From assembly GCF_000016185.1 (NCBI RefSeq), contig NC_011420.2, positions 764,501 to 828,500 of the forward strand: a DNA stretch of 64,000 bases. The letters are read 5' to 3'. The stretch is from Rhodospirillum centenum SW (GTDB taxonomy: Bacteria > Pseudomonadota > Alphaproteobacteria > Azospirillales > Azospirillaceae). Shown here one piece after another: positions 18,852 through 45,451 of this stretch. Made by a program: the position numbers and the translations under genes. Position 1 is the first letter of the stretch. Every line of letters begins with the position of its first letter. The notes beneath the pieces were generated by a model. The model saw only the letters and a list, made by a program, of their open reading frames with translations. It was not told the DNA's origin and did no database searches.

Positions 18852-20219
18852 ATGACTACGCCCCCCGGTTCCGGTCCCTCCCCGTCCCATGGAAGCTGGC
18901 TGCGCGACACGCTGCTGCGCCGGTTGCTCGCCAACGCCTCAAAGCTGCTGGGCGGCAAGGCGCTGAACGCCGTCTTCGGGCTGGGCGCCCTGGCGGTGGC
19001 GGCGCGCGGGCTGGGGGTGGAACAGTTCGGGGTGCTGGTGCTGATCCACACCTTCACCCAGGCGGTGGGGGAGATCGCCAAATTCCAGTCCTGGCAGGCC
19101 GTGCTGCGCTACGGCACCCCGGCCCTGCGGGAGGAGAGGCGGGGCGACTTCCAGCGCCTGCTCCGCTTCACGGTGCTGCTGGACGGGATCAGCGCCGTGC
19201 TGGGCATGGCGCTGGCGGTGGCCGTGGCGGGGCTTGCGGGGCCGGCCTTCGGCTGGCCGGCCGAGACGGTGCCGGCGGCGATGCTGTACGTCACCTCCTG
19301 CCTGTTCATGGTGACGGCGACGCCGACGGGGGTGCTGCGCCTGGTCGACCGCTTCGACCTGCTGGCCTGGCAGAGCACGGTGGGCGCCGCCGTGCGCTGC
19401 CTGGCCGGAGCCCTGGTCTGGGCGGCGGGCGGGGGACTCGGCGCCTTCCTGGTGGCCTGGTATCTGGCGACCGCCGCGGCCGGCATCTTCCTGATTGCCG
19501 CAGGCTGGCGCGAGCTGTCCCGCGGCGGCCTGCTGGCGGGCTGGCGCTGGCGGGGCGGCGGGCTGACGGCGGGCTTCCCCGGCATCTGGGGCTTCGTCTG
19601 GACGACGAACCTGAACACGACGCTGGAGCTGGCCTTCACCCACATGGGCACGCTGGCGGCCGGCGCCTTCCTGGGCACGCGGGAGGCGGCGCTGTTCCGC
19701 ATCGCGCGGCAGTTCGCCGACGCCCTGGCCAAGCCCGCAAAGCTGCTGGTGCCGGCCATCTACCCGGAACTGGCCCGGCTCTACGCCGCCGGCGACGTCG
19801 CCAGCATCCGGCGGCTGATGCAGCGGTCGGCCCTGCTGGCCGGGCTGGTGGCGACCGCCATGATGGCGGCGGTCTGGCTGCTGGGCGAATGGGTGCTGCG
19901 GGTCATCGTGGGGGCGGAGTTCGTGGCCGCGTTCCCGGTCATGCTCTGGCTGGTGGCGGGGGCGGTGGTCGGCATCTGGGCCTTCCCGCTGGAGCCGTTG
20001 CTGATCTCCACCGGCCATGCCGGCGCCGCCCTGCGGGTGCGGCTCTGGTCCACCGCGCTCTATGTGCCGCTGCTGCTGCTGCTGCTGGACACGGCGGGGC
20101 TGATCGGTGCCGGCTGGGCGGCGCTGGCGGCCTCCCTCTTCATCTTCGTCGCGCTGCTGCTGCCGGTCATCCGCTGGTTCGACCGCAGCGGCGGGCCGCC
20201 CGGGCAGCCGCGGTCCTGA
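18852..20219 (+). CDS. Lipopolysaccharide/polysaccharide flippase-like membrane protein
   Basis: 455 residues with about twelve hydrophobic segments, typical of Wzx-like MATE/MVF exporters. The N-terminal half (LLGGKALNAVFGLGALAVAARGLGVEQFG) matches the family opening, and the centre has KPAKLLVPAIYPELARLYAAG. Such proteins flip undecaprenyl-linked or lipid-linked sugars across the inner membrane. It converges with a GT4 glycosyltransferase and the last 53 bases of the two genes overlap. The substrate is unknown; adjacency to the ceramide locus leaves open a lipid-glycan. Confidence 0.85.
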   Translation: MTTPPGSGPSPSHGSWLRDTLLRRLLANASKLLGGKALNAVFGLGALAVAARGLGVEQFGVLVLIHTFTQAVGEIAKFQSWQAVLRYGTPALREERRGDFQRLLRFTVLLDGISAVLGMALAVAVAGLAGPAFGWPAETVPAAMLYVTSCLFMVTATPTGVLRLVDRFDLLAWQSTVGAAVRCLAGALVWAAGGGLGAFLVAWYLATAAAGIFLIAAGWRELSRGGLLAGWRWRGGGLTAGFPGIWGFVWTTNLNTTLELAFTHMGTLAAGAFLGTREAALFRIARQFADALAKPAKLLVPAIYPELARLYAAGDVASIRRLMQRSALLAGLVATAMMAAVWLLGEWVLRVIVGAEFVAAFPVMLWLVAGAVVGIWAFPLEPLLISTGHAGAALRVRLWSTALYVPLLLLLLDTAGLIGAGWAALAASLFIFVALLLPVIRWFDRSGGPPGQPRS

Positions 20220-23285: not shown

Positions 23286-24251
23286 ATGGACGGCCCGCTT
23301 CCTGTCGCCGCCGTTACCGGGGCCACCGGCTTCCTGGGCAGGTTCCTGGTCCGTGCGCTGCACCGCCAGGGCTTCCGGGTCCGCATCCTGGCGCGTCAGG
23401 ACCCGGTGCATCCGCTGTTCCGTGACATCCCGCTGGAGGTGGTGCCGGGCGACCTCGCCTGTGCGCCGGCGCTGGCGCGGCTGGTCTCCGGGGCGACATC
23501 CGTGGTGCATGCGGCCGGGCTCATCAAGGCAGCCTCGGCCGGGGAGTTCTTCGCCGTCAACGAGGGCGGGGCCGCCCGGGTGGGGGCGGCGCTGGCCGGC
23601 CATGCCGCGGGCGCCCGCCTGGTGGTTGTCTCCAGCCTTGCTGCGCGGGAGCCGGAGCTTTCCCCCTATGCCGCCAGCAAGCGGGCGGGGGAGGGGGCTG
23701 CCGTCTCCGCGGCGGCGACGGCGGACTGGTGCATCGTCCGGCCGCCGGCGGTCTACGGCCCCTGGGACCGGGAGACGCTGGCCCTGTTCAAGGCCGCGGC
23801 GGGGCCTGTCGTGCCCGTCCTGGGCGGCCCGGCGGCGCGGCTGGCGCTGATCCAGGTGGAGGAGGCGGCGGCCGCCGTGGCGGCGTTGGCCCGCCCCGGC
23901 GGACCGGCCGGAACCACGTTCGAACTGGCCGATCCGCGGCCCGCCGGCTACGGCTGGGACGACCTGCTGGACGCGGCGGCGGCGGCGGTAGGTCGGCGCG
24001 CAAGGCGCATCCTCCTGCCGAAATCGGGCTTGCACGTCCTTGGCCGTATGGGCAGCCTCCGCGCCCGGGTCACCGGCCGGCCGGTCATGCTGACGGTGGG
24101 CAAGGTCCGGGAGATCCTGCACGAGGACTGGTCGGTCCAGCCGGACCGGATGCCCCCGCCGGGGCTGTGGTCCCCCCGACTCGGGCTGGTCGAAGGGTTC
24201 GCGGCGACCGCCGCGTGGTACCGCGAGAGGGGCTGGCTGGCCGTCATCTAG
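23286..24251 (+). CDS. cerR: NAD-dependent epimerase/reductase, probable ceramide reductase
   Basis: 321 residues of the extended short-chain dehydrogenase family. The Rossmann motif TGATGFLG is at residues 11-18, VVHAAGL about 73-79, and the catalytic YxxxK at Tyr128-Lys132 (SPYAASKRAG). Caulobacter CerR reduces the 3-oxo group of the sphingoid intermediate. The start lies 11 bases after the ligase stop, so the two genes are co-transcribed. A reductase acting on another lipid cannot be excluded from sequence alone. Confidence 0.8.
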   Translation: MDGPLPVAAVTGATGFLGRFLVRALHRQGFRVRILARQDPVHPLFRDIPLEVVPGDLACAPALARLVSGATSVVHAAGLIKAASAGEFFAVNEGGAARVGAALAGHAAGARLVVVSSLAAREPELSPYAASKRAGEGAAVSAAATADWCIVRPPAVYGPWDRETLALFKAAAGPVVPVLGGPAARLALIQVEEAAAAVAALARPGGPAGTTFELADPRPAGYGWDDLLDAAAAAVGRRARRILLPKSGLHVLGRMGSLRARVTGRPVMLTVGKVREILHEDWSVQPDRMPPPGLWSPRLGLVEGFAATAAWYRERGWLAVI

Positions 24252-24688: not shown

Positions 24689-25909
24689 ATGACCATACTC
24701 GCGAAATTCGCACCGCTGCGGGAGGCCTACGAGAAGCTCAGAGAGTTTGGTCACGATCCCTTCTCGGTCCAGTTCGACCGGATCGTTTCGCCGACTGAGG
24801 GCATTCTCGGGGGCCGCCGCACGATCCTGCTCGGGACCAACAACTATCTGGGGCTGACTTTCGACCAGAGCTGCATCGACAGGGCCGTGGAGGCCGTGGT
24901 CGAGCAGGGGACCGGCACGACCGGGTCCCGTATCGCGAATGGCAGCTATGCCGGCCACCGCGATCTGGAGGCCGCCCTCGCCCGCTTCTACGGGCGCCAG
25001 CACTGCATGGTCTTCACGACGGGCTATCAGGCGAACCTGGGCATCCTGTCCACGCTGGTGGGCAAGGACGACATCCTGGTGATCGACGCCGACAGCCACG
25101 CCAGCATCTATGACGCCTGCAAGATGGGGCAGGCGCAGGTCGTGCGCTTCCGCCACAACGACCCCGACGATCTCTACAAGCGGCTGAACCGTCTGTCCAC
25201 GCATCCGGGCAACAAGCTCGTGGTGGTGGAGGGCATCTATTCGATGCTCGGCGACACCGCGCCCCTGAAGGAGATCGCCCAGGTCAAGCGCGAGACGGGC
25301 GCCTTCCTGCTGGTGGACGAGGCGCACTCGATGGGTGTGCTCGGCGCGCACGGGCGCGGTCTGGCCGAGGCCGCGGGCGTGGAAGAGGATGTCGATTTCA
25401 TCGTCGGCACCTTCTCCAAGAGCCTGGGCGCCGTCGGCGGCTTCTGCGTCTCCGACCTGCCGGACTTCGACATCCTGCGCGTCGCCTGCCGGCCCTACAT
25501 GTTCACGGCCTCGCTGCCGCCGTCGGTCATCGCCTCCACCATGCAGGCGCTGCACCGCATGCAGGAGGAACCGGCCCTGCGCCTGCGGCTGACGGCCAAT
25601 GCCCGTCGCCTGTACGACGGGCTCAAGGGCCTGGGCTTCCGCGTCGGGCCGGAGGCGAACCCCATCGTCTCCATCGCCCTGCCCAGCCGGGAGATCGCCA
25701 TCGCCTTCTGGAACATGCTGCTGGACAGCGGCCTGTACCTGAATCTGGCGCTGCCGCCGGCCACGCCGGACAATCTCCCCCTGCTGCGCTCCAGCGTCAG
25801 CGCGGCGCACACGCCCCAGCAGATCGACACGGCCATCGGCCTGTTCGCCCAGATCGGCCGCAGCCTCGGGCTGCTGCCGGCCACCAAGGTGCATGCCGCC
25901 GCCGAGTGA
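24689..25909 (+). CDS. spt: Serine palmitoyltransferase
   Basis: 406 residues of the alpha-oxoamine synthase family (fold type I PLP enzymes). GTNNYLGL is at about 49-56, the cofactor-stacking His137 in DADSHASIYDA, Asp210 and His213 in LLVDEAHSMG, and the PLP lysine Lys244 in TFSKSLGAVGG. The reaction condenses L-serine with an acyl thioester to 3-oxo-sphinganine, the first step of sphingolipid synthesis. KBL, BioF and HemA are the alternatives; the adjacent ACP, reductase, ligase and, further on, bCerS-like gene favour Spt. A hairpin terminator follows. Confidence 0.88.
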   Translation: MTILAKFAPLREAYEKLREFGHDPFSVQFDRIVSPTEGILGGRRTILLGTNNYLGLTFDQSCIDRAVEAVVEQGTGTTGSRIANGSYAGHRDLEAALARFYGRQHCMVFTTGYQANLGILSTLVGKDDILVIDADSHASIYDACKMGQAQVVRFRHNDPDDLYKRLNRLSTHPGNKLVVVEGIYSMLGDTAPLKEIAQVKRETGAFLLVDEAHSMGVLGAHGRGLAEAAGVEEDVDFIVGTFSKSLGAVGGFCVSDLPDFDILRVACRPYMFTASLPPSVIASTMQALHRMQEEPALRLRLTANARRLYDGLKGLGFRVGPEANPIVSIALPSREIAIAFWNMLLDSGLYLNLALPPATPDNLPLLRSSVSAAHTPQQIDTAIGLFAQIGRSLGLLPATKVHAAAE

Positions 25910-26602: not shown

Positions 26603-27577
26603 TCAGCGGATGGCGCCGCGGCGCCAGAGGAACCAGAGCACGCCGGGCGCGGCCAGCAGCGGCCAGCGCCGCTGCCAGGGGGCCAGCGCCAGCCGCACGC
26701 CGGAATGCCGCTCCACCTTCCAGGCGATGTAATCGACCCCGTTGCGGAAGGTGAAGGCGGCCTTCACCAGCCGCGCGACGTTCAGCAGCTTGCCGGCGAC
26801 CTGCCGCCGCTGCCAGCGCCGCCGGGCCGCCTCCCGCTCGCCCGTGGCGAGGGCGGGGCGCAGGGTGCCGTCGCCGGACCCGGCGAAGCCGGTGCCGGCC
26901 AGGGCGAGGGCGGGGCGGAACAGGGCGGCGTAGCGGTCGGCGGCATGGCCGACGATGCCGCTGGCGCGGTCGGCCTTCTCCACCCGCAGCTCGGCGGCAT
27001 AGGTGTGGCGGAACAGGGCGTCCCAGTATCCGGCCGGGGGGCCGCTCTCCGGCCCCAGCCGCGCCGCCCACCAGGCCGCGGTGGCGACGGCGGCCGCGAC
27101 GGCCCCCGCCGCCCAGCGCCCGGCGTCGGCGTCGCGTGCATGGACAAGGCGGACCGGCTGGGCGAAGCGGGCCCAGATCGTCGTATCCAGGCTGTCCGGC
27201 CGCACCGCGCGCTCGAACTGGCGGCGGGACATCACCGCCACCTTGGCCCGCACTGTGCGGCCCTGCCAGTCGGATTCATGGAAGAAGACGTTGGGCGGCA
27301 GCAGCCGGTTCGCCAGCGCCTGCCAGGTCCCCCGGCCGTGCCAGCCGCTCAGGCTGTCCACGATCACGTAGAAGTCCAGCACCCCGTCCAGGTCGCCGGT
27401 GCGCAGCACGGAACCGTAGAAGAGGACGGCGGCGACGCTGTCGCCCCCATGCCGGACCAGATCCAGCGCCAGGGCGGTGGCGGCCGGCGCGACCGGCTCC
27501 GCCAGTTCCGCCGCGATCGCTCCGACCAGCGCCTCGGCAGCGCCGGCGGCCGGCGTGGCCGGGGCGGTCGGTGTCAT
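26603..27577 (-). CDS. Nucleotidyltransferase-fold protein, sphingolipid headgroup gene candidate
   Basis: 324 residues. The N-terminal part has FYGSVLRTGDLDGVLDFYVI at about 53-72, a variant of the GS...D-x-D motif of polymerase-beta-type nucleotidyltransferases. The C-terminal half is Arg/Ala/Trp-rich, ending in a hydrophobic stretch (PLLAAPGVLWFLWRRG) that may touch the membrane. It overlaps the kinase gene upstream by four bases. Caulobacter carries a comparable gene next to its ceramide kinase in the cpg set. The activity is unknown. Confidence 0.65.
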   Translation of the reverse strand: MTPTAPATPAAGAAEALVGAIAAELAEPVAPAATALALDLVRHGGDSVAAVLFYGSVLRTGDLDGVLDFYVIVDSLSGWHGRGTWQALANRLLPPNVFFHESDWQGRTVRAKVAVMSRRQFERAVRPDSLDTTIWARFAQPVRLVHARDADAGRWAAGAVAAAVATAAWWAARLGPESGPPAGYWDALFRHTYAAELRVEKADRASGIVGHAADRYAALFRPALALAGTGFAGSGDGTLRPALATGEREAARRRWQRRQVAGKLLNVARLVKAAFTFRNGVDYIAWKVERHSGVRLALAPWQRRWPLLAAPGVLWFLWRRGAIR

Positions 27578-28527
27578 GGGATCACGAAGTCCATGCTGCG
27601 GCCGGCGGACAGATGCACGGTGCCGCCGGGGCCGGGATCGAACATCTCGCCATCGACGACGAAGGGCGACCGGATGCCCAGCGTCAGCGTCTCCGCCACG
27701 CCGCTGCGGTAGCCGTCGGCCAGCATGAAGGGCTCGGGCCGGCCGCGCATCAGCGGCACCACCGCCCGGTGCAGCGATTCCGGGTGGGCGGAGATGTCCA
27801 GATAGCGGATCGGTTCCCGCCCCTCGCCCCAGAAGGGCCAGATCCCCAACACCAGCCGGTGCAGCGTCGTCGCCAGGAAGAGGAAGCGGTTCGCCTCCGG
27901 CCCGTTCGAGCCGTCCACGACGACGTTCATCGGCTCCCCGTCCAGCCAGCCGTCCTTGCCGCGCAGGGCCCGCGCCAGGGCGCCGGCGATGGTCAGCGCC
28001 ACCGCCGGACCCTGGTACAGACCGCGGGAATGAACCTTCTCCTGCGCCAGGGCCGTGCCGCGGGTGAAGGCGGCGGTGCCCATGAACATGCCGCGCACCG
28101 GCGGCCGCGAGCCGTCGGCCCAGGTTGCCTCCAGGACCGGGCGGCGCTGGATATGGCTGCCCAGATAGCCGCGCCGGGCCTCCTCCACCAGCCGGCAGAA
28201 GGCGCGCGTGCCGTGGCCGGTGGTGCCGACATCGGCGGCGATCAGGTTGGTCTTGCCCGAGGCCAGGATGGACAGCATGGGCTGCTGGTCACCATAGGCT
28301 TCGGGCAGGGCGGTCAGGACCTCCCGCACCGTGCCGTCGCCGCCGTCCACGACGATGATGCCGACCTCGTTCCGGGCGAAGTCGGCCAGCACCTCCGTCA
28401 ACTCGGCCGGGGTGGCGGGCTCGGCATAGAACAGGCCCAGCATCTCCGCCGCCCGCCCGGCCATGTCGCCGTGGCTGGAGCGGTTGCGCTGACTCCTCGG
28501 ATTGCGGATCAGGCCCAGGCGGATCAT
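27574..28527 (-). CDS. cpgB: Lipid kinase of the diacylglycerol/ceramide kinase family
   Basis: 317 residues. The kinase signature VVDGGDGTVREVL (GGDGT at 62-66) is preceded by IRNPRSQRN and followed by MFMGTAAFTRG and VDGEMFDPG. The family phosphorylates diacylglycerol, sphingosine or ceramide with ATP. In this locus ceramide is the likely substrate, as described for Caulobacter CpgB. The start overlaps the stop of the phosphatidyltransferase gene (ATGA) and the stop overlaps the next gene, so the three are translationally coupled. Confidence 0.78.
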   Translation of the reverse strand: MIRLGLIRNPRSQRNRSSHGDMAGRAAEMLGLFYAEPATPAELTEVLADFARNEVGIIVVDGGDGTVREVLTALPEAYGDQQPMLSILASGKTNLIAADVGTTGHGTRAFCRLVEEARRGYLGSHIQRRPVLEATWADGSRPPVRGMFMGTAAFTRGTALAQEKVHSRGLYQGPAVALTIAGALARALRGKDGWLDGEPMNVVVDGSNGPEANRFLFLATTLHRLVLGIWPFWGEGREPIRYLDISAHPESLHRAVVPLMRGRPEPFMLADGYRSGVAETLTLGIRSPFVVDGEMFDPGPGGTVHLSAGRSMDFVIP

Positions 28528-29774
28528 GGGGCCAGCCAGGACCGTACCGGACCGTGCCGCTTCGCCTCGAAGGCCTGGAGGATCTGCGCCGTGTGGACCA
28601 GGAAGCTCGCCGCCGTCCAGACGGTCACGGCCAGCATGCCCAGGTCCGGGCGGCCGAAGAGGGTGAAGGCCGTCAGCAGCAGCAGGTTCGGGTTGCGCCG
28701 CGCCGTGACCAGCCGGAACTGGCTGTCGAAGCGGCGCCAGATGTGGATCTCGATCTTGAACAGGGCAAGGAACAGACCCTCCTGGAGGCGCTGCGCCACG
28801 TAGCCGCCGACGAGGATGGCCAGCACCAGCGGCTCGTTCCCCAGCGGCATGCCGGCGGCTCCCAGCCCGACGACCCAGGCCCACCACCAGAAGGGCGGAT
28901 GCACGAGGTCGATGCCGTGGTCGAAGACGTTGCCCCACTTGGACGAGGTCAGCGTCACCCGCGCCAGCTTGCCGTCCACCGTGTCGAGGAAGGTCATCCC
29001 CCAGGCGAACAGCAGGCCGATCACGAACCAGCCCATCCAGAACGAGAGGAACGCCAGCACCACCAGCGCGGCCGACGCGGTCGTCACCTGGTTCGGCGTC
29101 ACCGCGTTCAGGGCGCACCATTTGGTGGCGGCCTGGGCCGGGCGCGGCCAGACATACTTGGTCACCAGATCGGTGACGCCCTTGTAGGAGCCGTCGAAGG
29201 TCCGCCGCTCGATGGCGGGGACCGTCTCCGGCGTCAGCCGCAGCAGGAAGGGCGGCTCCTTCTTGCGCAGGGCATTGTTGTAGTCGGAGGACAGCTCCCC
29301 CGGCCGGACGGTGCGCAGGGCCGGGAACTGCCCTTCCGGCAAGGCCTGCCCGGAGAGAAGGACTAAAGCCACGGCCGGGGCGTTCTCGGCATCGACATGG
29401 GCGGCCACCGCCTCACCCGAGACCGGATCGAGCAGCAGCGTGCCCGGCGCGCGGACCAGATCGCGCACCAGCACCTCGTCGAAGACGAAGTCGGCGCGCA
29501 GCAGGATCTGCGGGGCCGTTCCCGGATCGGGGGCCTCCGACCAGGAGCGCACGGCGGTCACGCCGGCCCGCACGAGCTGGCGGCGGAGGCGCTCGACGGA
29601 GGACATGCCCCAGATGTCGGCCGGGCTGTCGCCGATGATCGCTGCCTGTGGCAGGGCCGGGACGGTCCGGTTCTCGATGGCCTGGCTCTCCCCAGGCGAG
29701 GCATCGGGGGTGTCCGCAGCGGAGGTCGCAGCGCCGCTCGTCACAGTGTCGGTCAGGGAATCAGTCATTGTCAT
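28524..29774 (-). CDS. CDP-alcohol phosphatidyltransferase with N-terminal nucleotidyltransferase-like domain
   Basis: 416 residues. The C-terminal membrane domain has the complete D-x2-D-G-x2-A-R-x8-G-x3-D-x3-D motif at about 264-289 (DTVDGKLAR, then GNVFDHGID) and several membrane helices. The first ~200 residues are soluble and resemble a degenerate sugar-nucleotidyltransferase domain (AAIIGDSPADIWGMSSVERL), an arrangement known from bifunctional inositol-phosphate enzymes. It should transfer a phosphoalcohol between CDP-alcohol and a lipid acceptor. I chose the ATG at 29774, which follows AAGAAG; TTG 29777 and ATG 29768 are alternatives. Confidence 0.8.
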   Translation of the reverse strand: MTMTDSLTDTVTSGAATSAADTPDASPGESQAIENRTVPALPQAAIIGDSPADIWGMSSVERLRRQLVRAGVTAVRSWSEAPDPGTAPQILLRADFVFDEVLVRDLVRAPGTLLLDPVSGEAVAAHVDAENAPAVALVLLSGQALPEGQFPALRTVRPGELSSDYNNALRKKEPPFLLRLTPETVPAIERRTFDGSYKGVTDLVTKYVWPRPAQAATKWCALNAVTPNQVTTASAALVVLAFLSFWMGWFVIGLLFAWGMTFLDTVDGKLARVTLTSSKWGNVFDHGIDLVHPPFWWWAWVVGLGAAGMPLGNEPLVLAILVGGYVAQRLQEGLFLALFKIEIHIWRRFDSQFRLVTARRNPNLLLLTAFTLFGRPDLGMLAVTVWTAASFLVHTAQILQAFEAKRHGPVRSWLAP

Positions 29775-29895
29775 CAATGCTTCTTAACGCAATGTTTCGG
29801 GTTAGATAGCTGTTCGGGCGGGCGCTGCCTACGCACCGACTGGCCGCAACGCCTGATTTGGCGGTGATGTGACGGATTTCTTCAGCGGGTGTTGC

Positions 29896-30867
29896 ATGTT
29901 TGCCCTTCGTTTCGCGCATTTCACCGATCCGCACCTGCCACTGCCGCCGGCCGGCCCGGGCTGGACGGCACTGCTGTCCAAGCGGCTGTTCGGGTATCTG
30001 TCCTGGCGCCGCCGCCGGCACCGCATCCACCGGCCGGAGGTACTGGCCGCGCTGCTTGACGATATCCGCGCCCGGAAGCCGGACCACCTCGTCTGCACGG
30101 GGGACCTTGCGAACATCTCCCTGCCGGCGGAGTTCGAGCGTGCCCGGGTCTGGCTGGAGGCCACCGCGGCCCCGCGGGATCTGACGCTCGTCCCCGGCAA
30201 TCACGATGCCCTGGTGCCCGTTCCCTGGGTGCGGGGCCTGGGGCTTTGGGAACCGTGGATGCGGGGCGATCCCGGCACGGGGCCGGACGGCACCGCCGGC
30301 GGGGAGGGGCTGTTCCCGTCGCTGCGGGTGCGCGGCGCCGTCGCCTTCATCGGCCTCAGCTCGGCCGTGCCGACCGCGCCCCTGCTGGCCACCGGCCGCG
30401 TCGGCCAGACCCAGCTCCGGCGGCTGGAGGCGCTGCTGCAAGAGCAGGGCGCCGCCGGGCGCTACAGGGTCGTGCTGCTGCACCACCCCCTGGCCGACGG
30501 GACCGTCCGTGCCCGCAAGGCGCTGACCGACCGGGCCGCCGTGCGCGCGGTGCTGGCCCGCGCCGGGGCCGAGCTGGTGCTGCACGGGCATGCCCACTGC
30601 GCCCGTTTCGCGGCGCTGCCGGGACCGCTCGGGCCGATTCCGTCGCTGACCGCCCCCAGCGCGTCCGCCGTCGCCCATGGCCGCTACGATGCGGCGCGCT
30701 GGTCCCTGGTCGAGGTCCGGCGCACGCCCGACGGCTGGCGCACCGCGGTCACGGTGCGCGGCTGGGAGGCGTCGGCGGGAGCCTTCGGGACCCTGGGCCA
30801 TTACGACCTGCTGATGCCCGCGCAGACAGGCGCGGCGGGGGGAGGGGTGGCAGATCGCGCCGCCTGA
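29896..30867 (+). CDS. Calcineurin-like metallophosphoesterase
   Basis: 323 residues with all five family motifs: HFTDPHL near the start, GDLANI, GNHD, LLHHP and HGHAH. These bind a dinuclear metal centre and hydrolyse phosphodiesters or monoesters. UDP-diacylglucosamine hydrolases and lipid phosphatases belong here. It is divergent from the phosphatidyltransferase across about 120 bases and lies inside the ceramide region, so a lipid-phosphate or nucleotide-lipid substrate is plausible. A GTG at 29869 is an alternative start. Confidence 0.8.
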   Translation: MFALRFAHFTDPHLPLPPAGPGWTALLSKRLFGYLSWRRRRHRIHRPEVLAALLDDIRARKPDHLVCTGDLANISLPAEFERARVWLEATAAPRDLTLVPGNHDALVPVPWVRGLGLWEPWMRGDPGTGPDGTAGGEGLFPSLRVRGAVAFIGLSSAVPTAPLLATGRVGQTQLRRLEALLQEQGAAGRYRVVLLHHPLADGTVRARKALTDRAAVRAVLARAGAELVLHGHAHCARFAALPGPLGPIPSLTAPSASAVAHGRYDAARWSLVEVRRTPDGWRTAVTVRGWEASAGAFGTLGHYDLLMPAQTGAAGGGVADRAA

Positions 30868-30996: not shown

Positions 30997-31461
30997 ATGT
31001 CCGCCGTTCCCACCGCGACCATGACGAAGTTCGGCTATCCGCGCACGCTGGTGGCGGAGACACCGCACTGGGCGGTGCTGGTGCGCCCGAAGCAGCCGAC
31101 GCTGGGATCGCTGGTCGTGGCGGCCCGGCAGCCGGCGACCGCGTTCGGCCAGCTCGGCGTGGATGCCTTCGCCGGCCTGCAGCCGGTGGTGGCCCGGGTG
31201 GAGGCGGTGTTGCGCGAGGTCGTGGGCTATGAACGCATCAACCATCTGATGCTGATGATGGTGGACCCCGACGTGCATTTCCATGTCATCCCCCGCTATG
31301 AGGGCTCGCGGGCGTTCGAAGGGGTGACGTTCCCCGATGCCGGCTGGCCGGGGCCGCCCGCCCTGGGCGACGCCGTCGATCCCGATCCGGCCGTGCTGGA
31401 CCGGCTGATCGCCCGGTTGCGCGCCGCCTGGGATGCCGAGGCGACGGGAACCGGCGCGTGA
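30997..31461 (+). CDS. HIT-family protein
   Basis: 154 residues with the histidine-triad region DVHFHVIPRYEGS at about 85-97; the H-x-H core is present, but the third His of the triad is not obvious. HIT proteins hydrolyse nucleoside phosphoramidates or diadenosine polyphosphates. The stop overlaps the LptF-like gene (GTGACC), so it is the first gene of that operon. A nucleotide-handling role with the CDP-activated intermediates is only a guess. Confidence 0.75.
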   Translation: MSAVPTATMTKFGYPRTLVAETPHWAVLVRPKQPTLGSLVVAARQPATAFGQLGVDAFAGLQPVVARVEAVLREVVGYERINHLMLMMVDPDVHFHVIPRYEGSRAFEGVTFPDAGWPGPPALGDAVDPDPAVLDRLIARLRAAWDAEATGTGA

Positions 31462-32702
31462 CCGAGGTCGCCAACAGCGCCGCGGGAATGGACCGGACCC
31501 GGATTCCCTTCGGGACCCGGCTGATCGACCGCTACATCCTGACCGAGACGGCGAAGCCGCTGGCCCTGTCGCTGGTCGTCGTCATGCTGGCCCTGTTGCT
31601 GGAGCGCATCCTGCGCCTGTTCGACCTGCTGGCGAACCATGGCGGGCCGTTCCAGCTCGTGCTGCGCATGGCGGCCAATCTGGTGCCGCACTATCTCGGC
31701 CTCGCCCTGCCCGCCGCCTTCTTCATCAGCATGTTCGTCGTCGTCGCCAGGTTCGGGGACGAGAACGAGCTGGACGCGCTCCAGTCCAGCGGCCTGTCCG
31801 TGCCGCGGATCACCCGGCCCTTCCTCTGGCTGGGGACGGGGCTGATGGTGTTCAGCGTGCTTCTGTTCGGGTTCATCCAGCCCTACAGCCGCTACGCCTA
31901 TCAGGCGATCCACTACGCCGTCGTCAACGCCGCCTGGGACGCGACCGTGCCCCAGTCAGCCTTCGTCGATGCGGGGCAGGGGGTGACGATCACGGCCGAC
32001 ATGGTCGATCCCACCGGCCGCAACCTGGAGCGGGTCTTCGTGCAGCAGCTCCGCGACGGGGAGGAATGGGTGACGACGGCCGAATCCGGCCGGCTGGGCG
32101 TCAGCGACGACCGCAAGCGCATTCTGCTGACGCTCGACAACGGCGTGCAGGTGCGGACCCGGCCGGACGCCACCGTGGAGGTGGTGCGCTTCGGCCGCCT
32201 GACGCTGGACCGCGAATTCACGCTGGAGGCGCCGCCCTTCCGCCCGCGCGGCGGCAGCGAGCGCGAGCTGACCCTGGTCGAGCTGTGGCAGGAGATGCAC
32301 CAGCCCATCACCCTGGTCCCGCGCGGCACGCTGGAGGCCGAGTTCCATGCCCGGCTGGTGCGGGCGGTGTCGCTGCCGTTGATGCCGCTGCTGGCCCTGC
32401 CGATGGGCATGGCGGCCAAGCGGGCGCGGCGCGGGCTGGGCATCGCCCTGGCCGCGGCGATCCTCGTCCTCTACCACCATTCCATCCAGATGGGCGAAAG
32501 CCTGGCCGACATCGGGCGCGTGCCCGCCGCCCTGGGGATCTGGGTTCCGTTCGTCGTCTTCGCGCTGCTCTGCGGCTGGCTGTTCTACCGTACCCAGGAC
32601 CGGCCGGGCGAGAACCCGTTCGCCCATGCCTTCGACCGCCTTGATGCCGTGCTGCACGGCGTCATCCGGCTGCTGCCCCGTCGCCGCAAGGAGCGGCCAT
32701 GA
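31458..32702 (+). CDS. lptF: LptF-like ABC-transporter permease (YjgP/YjgQ family)
   Basis: 414 residues. Three N-terminal membrane segments (about 35-130) are followed by a periplasmic beta-jellyroll domain (about 140-290) and three C-terminal helices (RAVSLPLMPLLALPMGMAA onwards). LptF and LptG form the inner-membrane part of the LPS exporter with LptB. The start overlaps the HIT gene and the end overlaps lptG by four bases. Position inside the ceramide locus rather than next to lptD suggests either the housekeeping copy or a sphingolipid-specific paralogue. Confidence 0.85.
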   Translation: MTEVANSAAGMDRTRIPFGTRLIDRYILTETAKPLALSLVVVMLALLLERILRLFDLLANHGGPFQLVLRMAANLVPHYLGLALPAAFFISMFVVVARFGDENELDALQSSGLSVPRITRPFLWLGTGLMVFSVLLFGFIQPYSRYAYQAIHYAVVNAAWDATVPQSAFVDAGQGVTITADMVDPTGRNLERVFVQQLRDGEEWVTTAESGRLGVSDDRKRILLTLDNGVQVRTRPDATVEVVRFGRLTLDREFTLEAPPFRPRGGSERELTLVELWQEMHQPITLVPRGTLEAEFHARLVRAVSLPLMPLLALPMGMAAKRARRGLGIALAAAILVLYHHSIQMGESLADIGRVPAALGIWVPFVVFALLCGWLFYRTQDRPGENPFAHAFDRLDAVLHGVIRLLPRRRKERP

Positions 32703-33778
32703 CCGGAACCCTCGCCCGCTATCTGTCGCGCCAGTTCCTGGTGCGCAGCCTTGCCGTGCTGGTGGCGCTGACGGCGCTGCTCCAGCTTCTGGACCTGCTG
32801 GATGCCGCCAGCCGCGTGCTGGAGCGGGGGGGCGCTCTGGGGGATCTCGGCACCTACGCGCTGCTGCGGCTGCCCTCCATCGTCGAGCGGCTGGTGCCGC
32901 TGGCGGTGCTGGTCGGCTCGCTGACGACGCTCTACGGGCTGGTCCAGAACAACGAGATCGTCGCCATGCGGTCGGCCGGGCTGACGCCCTACCAGTTGCT
33001 GGCGACATTGATGCCGGCGGCCGTCGCCATCGCCGTCTTCCATCTGATCCTCTCCGACCAGATCGCGCCACGGGCGGAACGCGCCTTCCTCACCTGGTGG
33101 GCGGAGACCGAGCCGCCGACGGACGACGACCTTCCCCTGGCGGAGAAGAAGCTCTGGCTGCGGGTCGGGAACACCATCGTCGCCGCCGAACGGGTGCTTG
33201 AGCGCGGCGCCCGGCTGGAGCAGGTCAGCCTCTATCCCCGCGACGACCAGGGCCGCGTGACGGAACGGACCCGGGCCGCGGCGGCCGTCTACGGTGACGG
33301 GAACTGGACCCTGCTGGACGGCACCCGGCTCGACCTGACCCGGGGCGATTTCAAGGCCGAGCCGTTCGCGCGGGCGCCCTGGCCGGTGCGGCTGCATCCC
33401 GCCAACGTGGTCGAGGTGTTGCAGCCGACGGAGAACATCCCGCTGCTGCGGCTGCGCAGCATCCTGCGCGGCGACTGGGCCGGCCGGCAGAGTCCTGCCT
33501 ATTACGAGACGCGCCTGCACGAAACCTATGCCGGGCCGCTCGCCACGCTGATCATGGTGCTGCTGGCGGCGCCGGTGGCGCACGGCATGCGCCGCAGCGG
33601 AGCCGTGGGCGGCAGCATGGCCCTGGGGATCGGCATCGGGCTGACCTACCTGCTGGCGGACGGCATGCTGGCGGCGCTGGGGGAGGCGGGTGCCATGCCG
33701 GCCGTCATCGCCGCCTGGGCGCCGACGGTCTTCTTCGCCGCGGTGGGCGGTGCCATCCTGGTGCATGTGGAGGGGTAG
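32699..33778 (+). CDS. lptG: LptG-like ABC-transporter permease
   Basis: 359 residues opening LARYLSRQFLVRSLAVLVALTALLQLLDLLD, with the family motifs LPSIVERLVPLAVLVGSLTTL and NNEIVAMRSAGLTPYQLL, a periplasmic domain and a C-terminal membrane bundle ending in a cytosolic tail. It pairs with LptF to extract lipid from the inner membrane. Start and lptF stop overlap as ATGA. No lptB, lptC or lptA is nearby. Confidence 0.87.
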   Translation: MTGTLARYLSRQFLVRSLAVLVALTALLQLLDLLDAASRVLERGGALGDLGTYALLRLPSIVERLVPLAVLVGSLTTLYGLVQNNEIVAMRSAGLTPYQLLATLMPAAVAIAVFHLILSDQIAPRAERAFLTWWAETEPPTDDDLPLAEKKLWLRVGNTIVAAERVLERGARLEQVSLYPRDDQGRVTERTRAAAAVYGDGNWTLLDGTRLDLTRGDFKAEPFARAPWPVRLHPANVVEVLQPTENIPLLRLRSILRGDWAGRQSPAYYETRLHETYAGPLATLIMVLLAAPVAHGMRRSGAVGGSMALGIGIGLTYLLADGMLAALGEAGAMPAVIAAWAPTVFFAAVGGAILVHVEG

Positions 33779-33896: not shown

Positions 33897-34685
33897 ATGT
33901 GGGGCGAAGCCTGGCGGGGGCGGAGCTACGATCTCGGGCGGATGACGCTGCGGGATCTCACGGTCGCCTACTGGACCTATCCGGCGATCCAGGTCTACAC
34001 GGCCCTGGCGCTGCTCAGCGCCGGGCTGGCCCTCGCCTGGGCCGGCGACCCGGCCGCCCTTGTGCTGACCGTCCTGGTGGCGTCCGCCGTCTATCCGCTG
34101 GCGTGGTACGTGATCCACCGCTTCATCCTGCACGGTCGCTGGCTCTACCGGATGCCCTGGACGGCGGCGCTGTGGAAGCGCATCCATTTCGACCATCATC
34201 AGGACCCGCACCGGCTGGAGGTGCTGTTCGGCAGTCTCGCCAACACGCTGCCCACCATCGCCCTGGTGACGCTGCCGGTCGGCTGGGCCATCGACGGTCG
34301 GGCCGGGGCGGCGGCGGCGCTGGCGACGGGGCTGGTCACCACCTGCGTCTACGAGTTCTTCCACTGCATCCAGCATCTGAACTACAAACCCCGCTGGGCC
34401 TGGGTGGCGCGGATCAAGCAGCTCCATCTGGCCCACCATTTCCATGATGAAGACGGGAATTACGGCATCGTGAGCTTCCTGCCCGACAGGCTGTTCGGCA
34501 CCTACTATGCGGAGGCGCGGCAGCGGCCACGCTCGCGGCACGTCTTCAACCTGGGCTACGACCTGGAGGAAGCGAGGCGCTATCCCTGGGTCATGGAGCT
34601 GACCGGCGCACCGCCGCGCGACCGGCCGGAGGGGGCGGGCCGGCGCGGTGGCGAGACGCCGGCCGGCGGGAGGGCTTGCCTGTGA
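33897..34685 (+). CDS. Fatty acid hydroxylase / sterol desaturase family membrane enzyme
   Basis: 262 residues with the eight-histidine di-iron signature: HRFILH (His74, His79), HFDHH (97-101), HCIQH, and HLAHH. Four hydrophobic stretches flank these. The superfamily includes sphingolipid C4-hydroxylases, ceramide fatty acid 2-hydroxylases and sterol desaturases. In this locus hydroxylation of the long-chain base or amide-linked acyl chain is the likely role. CAGGAGA precedes the ATG by six bases. Its stop overlaps the bCerS-like gene start by four bases (GTGA). Confidence 0.85.
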   Translation: MWGEAWRGRSYDLGRMTLRDLTVAYWTYPAIQVYTALALLSAGLALAWAGDPAALVLTVLVASAVYPLAWYVIHRFILHGRWLYRMPWTAALWKRIHFDHHQDPHRLEVLFGSLANTLPTIALVTLPVGWAIDGRAGAAAALATGLVTTCVYEFFHCIQHLNYKPRWAWVARIKQLHLAHHFHDEDGNYGIVSFLPDRLFGTYYAEARQRPRSRHVFNLGYDLEEARRYPWVMELTGAPPRDRPEGAGRRGGETPAGGRACL

Positions 34686-35845
34686 GCGCGGCAGAACTGC
34701 TGGAGCCCGCCGGGGCCGGGGTGGAGATCGTGCCGGTGACGACGCCGGCCGAGATGGACCGCTTCATCCGCCTGCCGTACCGGCTGCACGCCGGCCACGC
34801 GCACTGGGTTCCGCCGCTGCTGCTGGAACGGCGGGAGACGCTGGACCCGAAGAAGAACCCGTTCTTCCAGTACGCCGAGGTCGCCTTCTTCCTGGCCGTG
34901 CGGAACGGGCGGGATGTCGGTCGCATCAGCGCACAGGTGGACCGCCAGCGCCTGTCGCTGCGGCCGGACGGGGTCGGCCATTTCGGCCTGATCGACGGGG
35001 AGGACGACCCGGCCATCTTCGCCGCGCTGACCGCCGCGGCCGAGGACTGGCTGCGCCGGCACGGCATGACCTATGTCATGGGACCGTTCGACCTGTCCAT
35101 CAACGAGCAGATGGGCCTCTTGGTCGATGGCTTCGACACGCCGCCGATGCTGCTGATGGCGCACGACTTCCCTTATGTCGCCCCGCGGCTGGAAGCGCTG
35201 GGCTACGGCAAGGAGAAGGACGTCTACGCCTACTACTACGACATCCGTGACGAGTTTCCGAAGGCGGTCCGGCGCATGCTGGACCGGCCGCTGCCGCCCG
35301 GCACCGTGCTGCGCCCTGTGGACATGTCCCGCTTCCTGGAAGAGATCCGGTCGCTGACGGAGATCTTCAACGAGGCCTGGTTCGACAACTGGGGTTTCGC
35401 GCCGCTGACCCCCACGGACACCGATTATCTCGCCAGCTCGATCCGCCCGCTGATCGAGAAGGACCTCGTCTGGTTCATCGAGATCGGAGGGGAGCCCGCG
35501 GCCTTCATCGTCGTCCTGCCCAACCTGAACGAGGCCATCGCGGACCTGGACGGAAAGCTGCTGCCCTTCGGCTGGGCCAAGCTGCTGTGGCGGCTGAAGG
35601 TGCGCGGCCTGAAGACGGCCCGGGTGCCGCTGATGGGCGTCAAGCGCAAGTTCGCCAAGGGGCTCTCGGGTGGCCAGTTCTCCTGGCTGCTGATCGACGC
35701 CTGCCGCAGATCCTGCCTGAAGCGGGGTGTCCAGACCTTCGAGCTGGGCTGGATCCTGGAGGAGAACGGCCCCATGCGGCGGATGCTGGAGAACATCAAC
35801 GCCCGTATCTACAAGACCTACCGCATCTATGGAAAGCCGCTGTGA
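34682..35845 (+). CDS. bcerS: bCerS-like bacterial ceramide synthase (GNAT-type N-acyltransferase)
   Basis: 387 residues. The N-terminal part opens with IVPVTTPAEMDRFIRLPYRL and GHAHWVPPLLLERRE; the C-terminal part has IFNEAWFDNWGFAPLT and the conserved ending LGWILEENGPMRRMLENINA. This family (often mis-annotated as ATP pyrophosphohydrolase or GNAT) contains the Caulobacter ceramide synthase, which attaches an acyl group to the sphingoid amine and is unrelated to eukaryotic CerS. The GTG start follows GGGAGG and overlaps the hydroxylase stop. Its presence with spt and acpR argues that the window holds a full ceramide route. Confidence 0.75.
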   Translation: MSAAELLEPAGAGVEIVPVTTPAEMDRFIRLPYRLHAGHAHWVPPLLLERRETLDPKKNPFFQYAEVAFFLAVRNGRDVGRISAQVDRQRLSLRPDGVGHFGLIDGEDDPAIFAALTAAAEDWLRRHGMTYVMGPFDLSINEQMGLLVDGFDTPPMLLMAHDFPYVAPRLEALGYGKEKDVYAYYYDIRDEFPKAVRRMLDRPLPPGTVLRPVDMSRFLEEIRSLTEIFNEAWFDNWGFAPLTPTDTDYLASSIRPLIEKDLVWFIEIGGEPAAFIVVLPNLNEAIADLDGKLLPFGWAKLLWRLKVRGLKTARVPLMGVKRKFAKGLSGGQFSWLLIDACRRSCLKRGVQTFELGWILEENGPMRRMLENINARIYKTYRIYGKPL

Positions 35846-36645
35846 GCGACACTGCGACACTGCCGGACCCCGGCCGGGTGACGGCCCTGGTGCTCGCCGG
35901 CTCCCGTGGGCCGGGCGATCCGGTGGCGCTGGCCGCCGGTGTCAGCCACAAGGCGATGGCCCCGGTGGCGGGAATTCCCATGCTGGTCCGCGTCGTCCGC
36001 ACGCTGCTGGCGGTGCCCTTCGTCGGGCGCATCGCCGTGGCGATCGAGGATGCCGGCGTCGTGCGGGCGGAGCCGGAGCTGGCTGCCCTGGCCGACAGCG
36101 GACGGCTGGAGCTGCTGCCCACGGCACCGTCGCCCGCCCGCACGGTGGGGGAGGCGCTGGAACGCCTGGGCACCCCGCTGCTGGTGACGACGGGCGACCA
36201 TCCGCTGCTGCGCCCGGACTGGGTTTCGCATTTCTGGACGCACCTGCCCCCCGATGCCGACGTGGCCGTCGGGCTCGCCCGCTCGGAGACGGTGCTGGCC
36301 GCCGTGCCGGAGACGCAGCGGACCTGGATCCGCTTCTCCGACGCGGCCTATTCGGGCTGCAACCTGTTCGCCTTCCGCACCCCGGCGTCGGCCCGCGTGG
36401 CCGAGCTGTGGCGGACGGTGGAGACGGAGCGCAAGAATCCGCTGAAGCTGATCGGCCTGCTCGGTCCCGTCGCCGTCGCCCGTTTCGCCCTGGGCCGGCT
36501 CTCCTCGACGGCGGCGCTGGCCCGGCTGGAGAGGATGTCCGGGGTGCGCGGCGCCTTCGTCGAGATGCCCTGGGGGGAGGCGGCGGTGGACGTGGACAAG
36601 GCCGCCGACCTTGTCCTGGCCGAGCGGCTGCTGCGCGCGGCCTAA
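35842..36645 (+). CDS. Nucleotidyltransferase (GT-A fold, MobA-like)
   Basis: 267 residues. The N-terminal nucleotide-binding segment is ALVLAGSRGPGDPVALAAG, followed by HKAMAPVAGIPMLVRVV and VTTGDHPLLRPDW; the C-terminal end has WGEAAVDVDKAADL. The fold activates a phosphoalcohol or sugar phosphate with CTP or another NTP. The GTG start overlaps the bCerS-like stop (GTGA), and it ends by overlapping the convergent Lrp gene by four bases. It is the best candidate to make the CDP-alcohol used by the phosphatidyltransferase in this locus. Confidence 0.72.
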   Translation: MSDTATLPDPGRVTALVLAGSRGPGDPVALAAGVSHKAMAPVAGIPMLVRVVRTLLAVPFVGRIAVAIEDAGVVRAEPELAALADSGRLELLPTAPSPARTVGEALERLGTPLLVTTGDHPLLRPDWVSHFWTHLPPDADVAVGLARSETVLAAVPETQRTWIRFSDAAYSGCNLFAFRTPASARVAELWRTVETERKNPLKLIGLLGPVAVARFALGRLSSTAALARLERMSGVRGAFVEMPWGEAAVDVDKAADLVLAERLLRAA

Positions 36646-42624: not shown

Positions 42625-43743
42625 GTGGTGGCACGGGCGGTCAAGGCGGAACCCAGGGTCCGGATCGCGCTGGCGGGGGTGGGCAACTGCGCTTCGTCGC
42701 TGATCCAGGGCATCGCGTTCTACCGGGGCGCCGGGGACAACGACGCCGTGCCCGGCCTGATGAATGTCCGCCTGGGCGGCTATCATGTCGGGGATGTGGA
42801 GGTCGCGGCGGCCTTCGACGTCGCCCACGCCAAGGTCGGTCTCGACCTGTCGGAGGCGATGGTCGCCCCGCCGAACAACACCCGGCGTTTCGCCGAGGTG
42901 CCCCGGCTGGACGTGCCGGTCCGCCGCGGCCCGACGCTGGACGGGCTGGGCAGCTACCTGCGCGACCGCGTGCCGGAGTCCGAGGCGCCGCCCGTGGACG
43001 TCGCCGCGGTGCTGCGCGACACCGGCACGGACGTCCTGGTCTCCTACCTGCCGGTCGGATCGCAGCGGGCGACGGAATACTATGCCGAACAGGCGCTGAA
43101 GGCCGGCTGCGCCTTCGTCAACTGCATCCCGGTCTTCATCGCCAGCCGGCCGGAGTGGCGCCGCCGCTTCGAGGAGGCGGGGCTGCCCCTGATCGGCGAC
43201 GACATCAAGTCCCAGGTCGGCGCCACCATCGTCCACCGCATGCTCGCCAACCTGTTCCGCGAGCGCGGCGTCCGGCTGGACCGGACCTACCAGCTCAATT
43301 TCGGGGGCAACGCCGATTTCCTGAACATGCTGGAGCGGGAGCGGCTGGAATCCAAGAAGCAGTCGAAGACCCAGTCGGTGGTCAGCCAGCTCGACCGTCC
43401 GTTGGCGAACGACGACGCCCATGTCGGGCCGAGCGACTTCGTGCCGTGGCTGACCGATCGGAAATGGTGCTACATCCGGATGGAGGGGACCGGCTTCGGC
43501 GACGTTCCCCTGAACCTGGAGCTGAAGCTGGAGGTCTGGGACAGCCCCAATTCCGCCGGCGTGGTGATCGATGCGGTGCGCTGCGCCAAGCTGGCGCTGG
43601 ACCGCGGCATCGGCGGGGCGCTCGACGGACCCAGCAGCTATTTCATGAAGTCGCCGCCGCACCAGTGTACCGACGCGGAGGCGCGGCAGCGCACGCGCGA
43701 CTTCATCGACGGCAGGGACCCCGGGACCGGCGGGGTGGCATGA
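42625..43743 (+). CDS. ino1: Myo-inositol-phosphate synthase
   Basis: 372 residues of the short prokaryotic Ino1 type. The NAD-binding segment is [17 protein letters not shown] near the N-terminus, then [56 protein letters not shown] and [17 protein letters not shown]. It converts glucose 6-phosphate to inositol phosphate. The GTG at 42625 has GGAG six bases upstream (42628 also possible). Its stop overlaps the histidine phosphatase (ATGA). This commits the operon to an inositol phosphate. Confidence 0.9.
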
Positions 43744-44345
43744 CCCGGTTCCTGCTGGTCCGGCACGCGCCGCACGCTCAACAGGGGCGGACGCTGGTCG
43801 GCCGCACCGATGTGCCCCTGTCCGACGAGGGGACACCGCTGGCCGCCGCGCTGGCCGAGCGGCTGGCGGGAGAGCCGCTGGCGGCGGTGCAGGCCAGCCC
43901 CCGCCTGCGCACCCGGTCCACCGCCGCGATGATCGCCGACCGCCACGGGCTGGCGGTGGAGACGGCGGCGGACCTCGACGAGATCGACTTCGGCGCCTGG
44001 ACCGGCAAGGACTTTGACGCCCTTGAGCCCGATCCCGGCTGGCGCTCCTGGAACGCCTGGCGCACCGGCTCCCGGCCGCCCGGAGGTGAAACGATGCTGG
44101 AGGTCCAGGGGCGGATGCTGCGGCACCTGGAGGGGGTGCGCGCACGCCGGCCCGACGGCACCGTCGCGCTCGTCTCCCACGGCGATCCGATCCGCGCCGT
44201 GCTCGCCTTCTGGCTGGGCATTCCGCTGGACCTCGCGCACCGGCTGGAGGTCGATCCCGCCTCGGTCAGCCGGGTGGAACTGTCCCCCTGGGGACCGCGG
44301 GTCCTGTCGGTCAACGAGACGCTGCGGCCGGGGGCGGGCGTATGA
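43740..44345 (+). CDS. Histidine phosphatase family protein
   Basis: 201 residues with the catalytic LLVRHAPHA (His9 region), the second-shell [11 protein letters not shown], and the C-terminal [14 protein letters not shown]. Members are broad phosphomonoesterases. Directly coupled to ino1, it might dephosphorylate inositol phosphate, though canonical inositol monophosphatases belong to another family. It overlaps both neighbours by four bases. Confidence 0.85.
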
Positions 44346-45427
44346 GGCTGGTCGTCTTCGGGCTAACCATCTCATCCTCCTGGGGGAACGGGCACGCCAC
44401 GCTCTGGCGTGGTCTCTGCGCCGCCCTGGCCCGGGCCGGCCACCGCGTCACCTTCTTCGAGCGTGACCAGGACTGGTACGCGGAGACCCGCGACTGCCAC
44501 GACATCCCCGGCGGCGCGCTGGTGCTCTACCGCGACTGGGCCGAGGCGCTGCCGCAGGCCCGCGCGGCGCTGGAGGGGGCCGACGCCGCCATGGTCACCA
44601 GCTACTGCCCCGACGGCATCGCCGCCAACGACCTGGTGCTGGAGGAGGGACGGGGCGTGAGGGTGTTCTACGACCTGGACACCCCGGTGACGCTGGCCCG
44701 GCTGGAAGCCGGCGAACCGCTGGGTTACATCGGTCCGCACGGGCTGCGCGGCTTCGACCTGGTGCTGAGCTACACCGGCGGCCGTGCCCTGGACGCGCTG
44801 CGGACCCGGCTGGGCGCGGAACGGGTGGCGCCGCTCTACGGCCATGTCGATCCGGCCGTCCACCGGCCGGTGCCGCCGCAGCCGCAGTACCGCGCCGACC
44901 TCTCCTACCTGGGGACCTACGCCGCCGACCGGCAGCGGGCGCTGGAGATTCTGCTGGTCGAGCCGGCGCGCCGCCTGCCGCGGCGCCGTTTCGTGATCGG
45001 CGGGGCGCAGTACCCGGCGGACTTTCCCTGGACGGAGAACATCTGGTTCGTCCGCCACCTGCCGCCGCCGGAGCACCCGGCCTTCTTCAGCGCCTCCCGC
45101 CTGACGCTGAACGTGACGCGCGCCGCCATGGCCGCCATGGGCTGGTGCCCCTCGGGCCGGCTGTTCGAGGCGGCCGCCTGCGGCACGCCCATCCTCTCGG
45201 ACCGCTGGGAGGGGCTGGACGCCTTCTTCACGCCGGGGCGGGAGATCCTGGTCGCCGGCACGACGGAGGAGGCGGTGGCGGCCATCGAGCGTGACAACGC
45301 CGACCTGGACCGCATCGCCGCTGCCGCGCGGGAGCGCGTGCTGGCCGAGCACACGGCCGACCGCCGGGCGGCCGACCTTCTGGCCCACCTGGAGCAGGCC
45401 CGCCGCCCGGCGCGGGCCGTTCTCTGA
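44342..45427 (+). CDS. CgeB-type glycosyltransferase
   Basis: 361 residues of the CgeB family (GT-B-like). The N-terminus is LVVFGLTISSSWGNGHATLW, followed by FYDLDTPVTLARL, LSYTGGRALDALRTRLGA, and the donor-domain signature GRLFEAAACGTPILSDRWEGL. Spore-coat CgeB relatives occur in saccharide clusters. It starts within the histidine phosphatase stop codon, confirming the operon. Confidence 0.8.
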   Translation: MRLVVFGLTISSSWGNGHATLWRGLCAALARAGHRVTFFERDQDWYAETRDCHDIPGGALVLYRDWAEALPQARAALEGADAAMVTSYCPDGIAANDLVLEEGRGVRVFYDLDTPVTLARLEAGEPLGYIGPHGLRGFDLVLSYTGGRALDALRTRLGAERVAPLYGHVDPAVHRPVPPQPQYRADLSYLGTYAADRQRALEILLVEPARRLPRRRFVIGGAQYPADFPWTENIWFVRHLPPPEHPAFFSASRLTLNVTRAAMAAMGWCPSGRLFEAAACGTPILSDRWEGLDAFFTPGREILVAGTTEEAVAAIERDNADLDRIAAAARERVLAEHTADRRAADLLAHLEQARRPARAVL

Positions 45428-45451
45428 CGGATCGAGAAGGGGGAGGCGCCG

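Follow-up and report, generated by a model that had tools for sequence, protein, structure and literature searches.

A second LptF/LptG permease pair in the ceramide gene cluster of Rhodospirillum centenum: a probable sphingolipid exporter on a shared Lpt line

The route by which bacterial sphingolipids reach the outer membrane has been stated to be unknown (PMC11324152; PMC11087976). A gene cluster of Rhodospirillum centenum SW raises this question in a concrete form: within the window, i.e. the whole stretch of 64,000 nucleotides analysed, two permeases of the LptF/LptG type are embedded among genes of ceramide synthesis. A sequence-only reading of the window had proposed either that the housekeeping pair, which extracts LPS from the inner membrane, had been relocated here, or that a second pair is dedicated to moving sphingolipids to the outer membrane. 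The comparisons described below argue for the latter: the second copy of this pump would very probably carry sphingolipids to the cell surface.

The pair consists of lptF2 (31458..32702, forward strand; 414 amino acids, GTG start) and lptG2 (32699..33778, forward strand; 359 amino acids), which overlap by 4 bp. Both were assigned to the family through their PF03739 matches, together with the NCBIfam LptG model for LptG2, and to a ceramide-linked clade through the LptF and LptG trees. A gene for a HIT-like protein (30997..31461, forward strand) lies directly upstream of lptF2, to which it is translationally coupled through another 4-bp overlap. This protein scores 17 bits against the Pfam HIT family (PF01230), under the 21.5 cut-off, and was recognized by its motif DPDVHFHVIPRY, in which Asp replaces the first His of the HIT motif, and by neighbour conservation. 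The motif D-P-[D/H]-V-H-x-H-V-x-P-R-Y is conserved in the homologues that precede lptF at 11 other loci, and such a gene adjoins lptF2 in 12 of the 40 ceramide-linked loci, the window counted. The coupled arrangement of the HIT gene and the two overlapping permeases, as described in the sequence-only reading, could thus be confirmed in its coordinates, overlaps and family matches.

The family assignments of the neighbouring genes also agree with a position of the pair between headgroup genes and bCerS genes. Upstream are found a CerR-like epimerase/reductase (23346..24251, forward strand; PF01370, start uncertain), which accompanies spt in relatives, the serine palmitoyltransferase gene spt itself (24689..25909, forward strand; NF047599, 693 bits for a cut-off of 500), and three genes on the reverse strand: a conserved cluster protein with no Pfam match (26603..27577), of which a homologue occurs in most ceramide-linked lptFG loci, a DAGK-like lipid kinase (27574..28530; PF00781), which is a candidate CpgB-like ceramide kinase, and a CDP-alcohol phosphatidyltransferase (28524..29777; PF01066), a candidate headgroup transferase. 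A calcineurin-like phosphoesterase of the cluster (29869..30867, forward strand; PF00149) follows. Downstream of the pair, all on the forward strand, lie a fatty acid hydroxylase (33942..34685; PF04116, start uncertain), a bCerS-type bacterial ceramide synthase (34676..35845) and a MobA-like NTP transferase (35842..36645; PF12804, 43 bits), the putative CpgD-like phosphoglycerate cytidylyltransferase. The bCerS protein has no Pfam match and was identified from the sequence-only reading and its conserved position, a bCerS homologue being a conserved neighbour in most ceramide-linked loci. Further upstream, a Wzx-type polysaccharide_synt flippase (18852..20219, forward strand; PF13440, 28.3 bits) is a candidate sphingolipid flippase; the Caulobacter cluster also lists a potential flippase (PMC11324152). 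Enzymes of this kind make ceramide phosphoglycerates in Caulobacter, where the function of CpgD has been described (PMC12275187). By analogy with these enzymes, the product of the window cluster is likely to be a lipid of the ceramide phosphoglycerate type.

Both permeases match PF03739 over their full length, with 235.6 bits for LptF2 and 251.5 bits for LptG2 (cut-off 27.9). The best NCBIfam model for LptG2 is LptG (TIGR04408; 284.9 bits, above the 240 cut-off), and that for LptF2 is LptF (TIGR04407), with a score of 216.5 bits lying just below the equivalog cut-off of 230. The AlphaFold model of LptF2 (pLDDT 82) displays the transmembrane helices flanking a periplasmic beta domain that characterize the family, and its best PDB matches by Foldseek are LptF/LptG chains.

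The R. centenum genome is complete, as a single contig of 4.36 Mb, and a search through it revealed the other lptF-lptG pair that the sequence-only reading had proposed to look for. This pair (1611213-1613395), 0.8 Mb away from the window pair, lies in a canonical cluster with the gene order pepA, lptF, lptG, surA, pdxA, rsmA. No SurA, PdxA or RsmA homologue is present in the window; lptD is found at 1.419 Mb of the same contig, and lptC, lptA and lptB near 3.296-3.298 Mb, so that the described lack of Lpt-partner and pdxA/rsmA genes near the window pair holds. There is only one true LptB in the genome (376 bits, the next ABC protein scoring 156), which rules out an LptB of its own for the second pair; among the genomes compared, a second LptB-like match was seen in one only. 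Profile searches likewise gave one LptD and one LptC, no second LptC being found beyond this single PF06835 match, a search that a very divergent LptC2 could escape. With a single copy of each of LptB, LptC and LptD in the genome, the two permease pairs would have to share these partners.

The evolutionary position of the window pair was analysed in separate LptF and LptG trees. About 60 alphaproteobacterial genomes, some with spt and others lacking it, contributed their pairs, and a GTDB scan supplied 20 further named loci. All 36 copies linked to pepA/surA fall on one side of a branch with SH-aLRT values, from a quick tree search, of 98 for LptF and 99 for LptG. The window pair does not branch with them and groups in both trees with the copies of Niveispirillum and other ceramide-linked copies. 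The named anchors of this ceramide-linked clade include Stella, Dongia, Magnetospirillum, Gluconacetobacter and Hydrocarboniphaga in addition to Niveispirillum, and no named Caulobacter or Sphingomonas copies appeared among the best 80 matches of the GTDB scan. Sisterhood of the window proteins with the canonical proteins of the same genome is rejected (p-AU 2e-4 for LptF and 7e-7 for LptG). A position of the window copy as first branch beside the canonical clade is rejected for LptF (p-AU 0.010), and not for LptG (0.27). The phylogenetic placement suggested in the sequence-only reading therefore sets the window pair, which is not the sole copy in its genome, outside the clade of canonical LPS exporters.

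The two clades share the residues expected to contact the ATPase. In E. coli, LptF E84 and LptG E88 couple the permeases to LptB (PMC5082905). Their counterparts, Glu104 of LptF2 (31767..31769, forward strand) and Glu86 of LptG2 (32954..32956, forward strand), were located by alignment and are invariant in LptF (57/57 ceramide-type and 36/36 canonical sequences) as well as in LptG (58/58 and 36/36). This conservation across the two clades leads us to expect that LptF2G2 works with the only LptB of the cell. The TM1 segment of LptF is different: comparison of alignment columns between the 57 ceramide-type and 36 canonical sequences gives LL.ER..RL in the former and mostly IW[LM][TS]QSLRL in canonical alphaproteobacterial copies, the window motif being LLLERILRL (residues 46-54; 31593..31619, forward strand). 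At LptG positions 40 and 41, E. coli has basic residues, as do nearly all of the canonical alphaproteobacterial copies, whereas most ceramide-linked ones have non-basic residues there. We take LptG residues K34, K40 and K41 to be LPS contacts, and the clade-differing positions in LptF TM1 and at LptG 40/41 presumably face the LPS cavity.

LptFG copy number follows lipid class, in terms of lipid A and Spt. In a survey of 115 alphaproteobacteria (completeness of 95% or more, most families being represented by a single genome) in which PF03739, Spt and LpxC were compared, the relation 'LptFG genes = 2 x (LpxC + Spt)' fits 106 genomes, with Spt called by one model, LptFG counts resting on Pfam, and many of the genomes being drafts or MAGs; five LptFG matches in one genome, including one gene split across contigs, were counted as four. 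Two pairs are found in 5 of the 6 Spt-positive genomes among those of this set with LpxC, against 1 of the 92 Spt-negative ones (p = 5e-7). Among 45 Spt-positive genomes, two pairs occur in 16 of 17 with LpxC and in 1 of 28 without it (p = 4e-10). These 28 genomes comprise 23 with one pair (one of them with a lone extra gene), one with two pairs, both of the ceramide type, and four with none. Three drafts lacking both LpxC and Spt still carry a pair. In five families, the Spt-positive members have two pairs and the Spt-negative members examined have one, which shows that the copy-number link does not just reflect deep ancestry. Missed lipid A genes do not account for the LpxC gaps either: the presence or absence of LpxK is identical to that of LpxC in all 46 genomes searched, and the loss of lipid A is thus not a search gap.

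The genomes devoid of lipid A genes, defined by the absence of both LpxC and LpxK, are particularly informative about which pair is retained. In all 24 of the LpxC-negative Spt-positive genomes with LptFG, the pair is of the ceramide type, one of them being typed by LptG alone because a contig end truncates its LptF. The bit scores to the window LptF2 range from 153 to 369 in those lipid-A-less genomes scored for LptF, versus 41 to 98 in canonical copies. The retained pair usually adjoins bCerS, and often spt. All 24 genomes have also kept one LptD and an LptB, and next to lptB Pfam recognized 9 of 10 candidate LptC and 10 of 10 candidate LptA proteins. Loss of LPS is accompanied by loss of the LPS-type permease, while the ceramide-type pair persists alongside the sphingolipid, together with the remaining Lpt components. 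This retention, unlike the behaviour expected of a canonical LptFG, lends support to the earlier idea of a second pair dedicated to sphingolipids, the transport itself being its putative part. For two of the lipid-A-less genomes, identical proteins are found in Dongia mobilis and Desertibaculum subflavum. LptD in lipid-A-less genomes could be retained for some other lipid.

The neighbourhood of spt points to the headgroup as a further correlate. In a comparison local to the spt and lptFG loci of few genomes, headgroup genes accompany 32 of the 40 loci carrying a ceramide-type pair. The second pair is lacking in five Spt-positive genomes, four of which (G057, which has LpxC, G048, G206 and G266) contain ceramide genes, with headgroup genes absent next to spt. 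The fifth (G377) is an exception, with spt, headgroup genes, LptB and LptD present, but no LptFG. A third, strongly diverged LptFG lineage was detected in three genomes, where it is accompanied by a CDP-alcohol transferase at all three loci and by a myo-inositol-1-phosphate synthase and an NTP transferase at two of them. A fourth divergent pair, in an Spt-less genome, shares its cluster with genes coding for alpha-oxoamine synthase, inositol phosphate synthase and CDP-alcohol transferase. The inositol-gene neighbourhood of the third lineage suggests headgroup-specific permeases, as a lead from three loci.

LptF2G2 is thus most probably a substrate-specific second Lpt exporter, which would load sphingolipids that carry a headgroup onto the Lpt bridge used by both pairs. 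In the proposed mechanism, the sphingolipid would be flipped beforehand by the candidate Wzx-type flippase. LptF2G2, forming the membrane part of another Lpt ABC exporter with specificity for headgrouped sphingolipids, would then work with the single LptB ATPase of the cell via the invariant coupling glutamates, and would hand its substrate to the shared LptC/LptA bridge, from which it would leave through LptD. What we infer here is which lipid is carried, that it travels over the shared bridge and that it exits through LptD. We also lean, with less assurance, towards a more general scheme for alphaproteobacteria, in which each class of surface lipid would have its own LptFG pair on a shared LptB-LptC-LptA-LptD line, with permease lineages adapted to the respective headgroup (that of LPS, of phosphoglycerate-type sphingolipid or of inositol-type sphingolipid), several families having lost lipid A and running Lpt on sphingolipids alone.

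Other roles of the pair have to be weighed against this dedicated export through the shared bridge. Relocation or recent duplication of the housekeeping pair into the ceramide region, to which LptF/LptG family membership alone speaks, can be considered as refuted by the presence of the canonical pair elsewhere in the genome and by the p-AU tests given above for both trees. It is also very improbable that LptF2G2 represents a spare or condition-specific LPS exporter found in the ceramide region by chance. R. centenum does have LPS genes, and the pair belongs to the same protein family with the same LptB contacts; however, its type is the only one retained in genomes without LpxC and LpxK, and 91 of the 92 Spt-less genomes with LpxC do without any second pair.

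Two further possibilities keep a sphingolipid as substrate. The pair could serve sphingolipid synthesis, for instance by flipping ceramide or presenting it so that a headgroup can be added, which would fit its place next to headgroup genes and its absence where spt loci hold ceramide genes only. Such a role is extremely improbable given that the LptF/LptG family extracts lipids outward to a bridge, and that the whole bridge, including LptD, is kept in lipid-A-less genomes. Other intermembrane carriers exist in alphaproteobacteria, and LptF2G2 might extract sphingolipids and pass them to one of these in the periplasm, or to an LptC-like partner of its own, instead of LptA/LptD. A separate LptC2 has indeed been proposed in the Caulobacter cluster (PMC11324152). 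This variant looks unlikely since the R. centenum genome shows a single LptC-family match, and since the retention of LptD, LptB and LptA/LptC in LpxC-negative genomes is hard to explain if the bridge is unused.

If LptF2G2 moves sphingolipids, Lpt would not be confined to LPS but would be a common line on which substrate-specific heads can be exchanged, which would help to explain how some lineages could abandon LPS and cover their surface with sphingolipid. The natural contrasts in sequence and gene content described here could be used to find the determinants of Lpt substrate choice. Among the open-access papers searched, no report was found of the copy-number rule, of the retention of a ceramide-type pair with the Lpt line in lipid-A-less genomes, of the clade motif or of the inositol-linked lineage, and nothing beyond PMC11324152 was found that makes this point by linking Sphingomonas, LptD and sphingolipids. 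The text of PMC11324152 was not found to contain the lipid-A-loss test, the clade split, the TM1 motif or the inositol lineage.

The idea of a sphingolipid-dedicated LptFG is already in print for Caulobacter crescentus, where CC_1168, CC_1156 and CC_1155 were named LptC2, LptF2 and LptG2 and proposed in 2024 to transport phosphosphingolipids to the outer membrane (PMC11324152). That proposal rests on gene position and mutant cofitness, transport being explicitly outside the study, and beta- and gammaproteobacterial clusters are without CC_1168 orthologues (PMC11324152). The Caulobacter cluster and the window have in common a second LptFG pair within a ceramide/phosphosphingolipid cluster, next to cerS/bCerS, but the former lists LptC2 (CC_1168) whereas the R. 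centenum genome shows a single LptC. With the canonical LptB2FG LPS exporter of E. coli, Acinetobacter and others, the window pair shares family, fold and LptB-coupling glutamates; it differs by its separate clade, its LptF TM1 motif and its gene neighbourhood, and the equivalents of LptG K40/K41, typical of canonical LptB2FG, are lost in most members of the ceramide clade. A more distant parallel is provided by Borrelia burgdorferi, which lacks LPS and has kept Lpt parts, with glycolipids proposed as cargo (PMC10353723). It is a spirochaete with a single pair, a different lipid and no coexisting LPS-type pair, but like the lipid-A-less alphaproteobacteria it maintains Lpt without LPS, another amphiphilic lipid being the proposed cargo.

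A diverged third LptFG lineage is encountered at three of the compared loci (L080:7989-12951, L119 and L110), where it is adjoined by serine palmitoyltransferase (spt)/AMP-ligase genes and by inositol-type headgroup genes. A CDP-alcohol transferase is encoded at all three, and MIPS together with an NTP transferase at two of them. This gene neighborhood suggests that the third lineage is a candidate inositol-phosphosphingolipid exporter. In the window, genes for myo-inositol-1-phosphate synthase, a glycosyltransferase and a nucleotidyltransferase lie at 42625-46225, about 9 kb past the lptF2/lptG2 pair, and possibly represent a separate locus for an inositol lipid or a glycan. G015, an Spt-less genome containing LpxC, has a very divergent LptFG pair within a cluster (L133:3225-13597) that also encodes an alpha-oxoamine synthase, a DUF4833 protein, a myo-inositol-1-phosphate synthase, an SDR, a glycosyltransferase, an FGGY kinase and a CDP-alcohol transferase. 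This cluster could possibly correspond to another surface lipid having its own permease.

The lipid-A-less genome G254 carries two LptFG pairs of the ceramide type (L117 and L118), each one adjoined by bacterial ceramide synthase and fatty acid hydroxylase genes, the second pair being fast-evolving. LpxC, LpxK, LptB, LptD and LptFG are all absent from three Spt-containing genomes (G048, G206 and G266; loci L253, L254 and L257), in which ceramide genes are present and headgroup genes were not found beside spt. G377 (L135) has two tandem Spt copies, headgroup genes, LptB and LptD, and lacks both LptFG and the lipid A genes; its missing LptFG reflects either an assembly gap or the use of a different permease.

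A HIT-like gene (30997-31461) is coupled to lptF2 in the window, and this adjacency is also seen in distant relatives. In some of these HIT-like proteins, Asp takes the place of the HIT motif's first His. In Caulobacter, the gene immediately preceding lptF2 is CC_1157, described in the literature as probably unrelated, but a role is suggested by the fact that the adjacency recurs.
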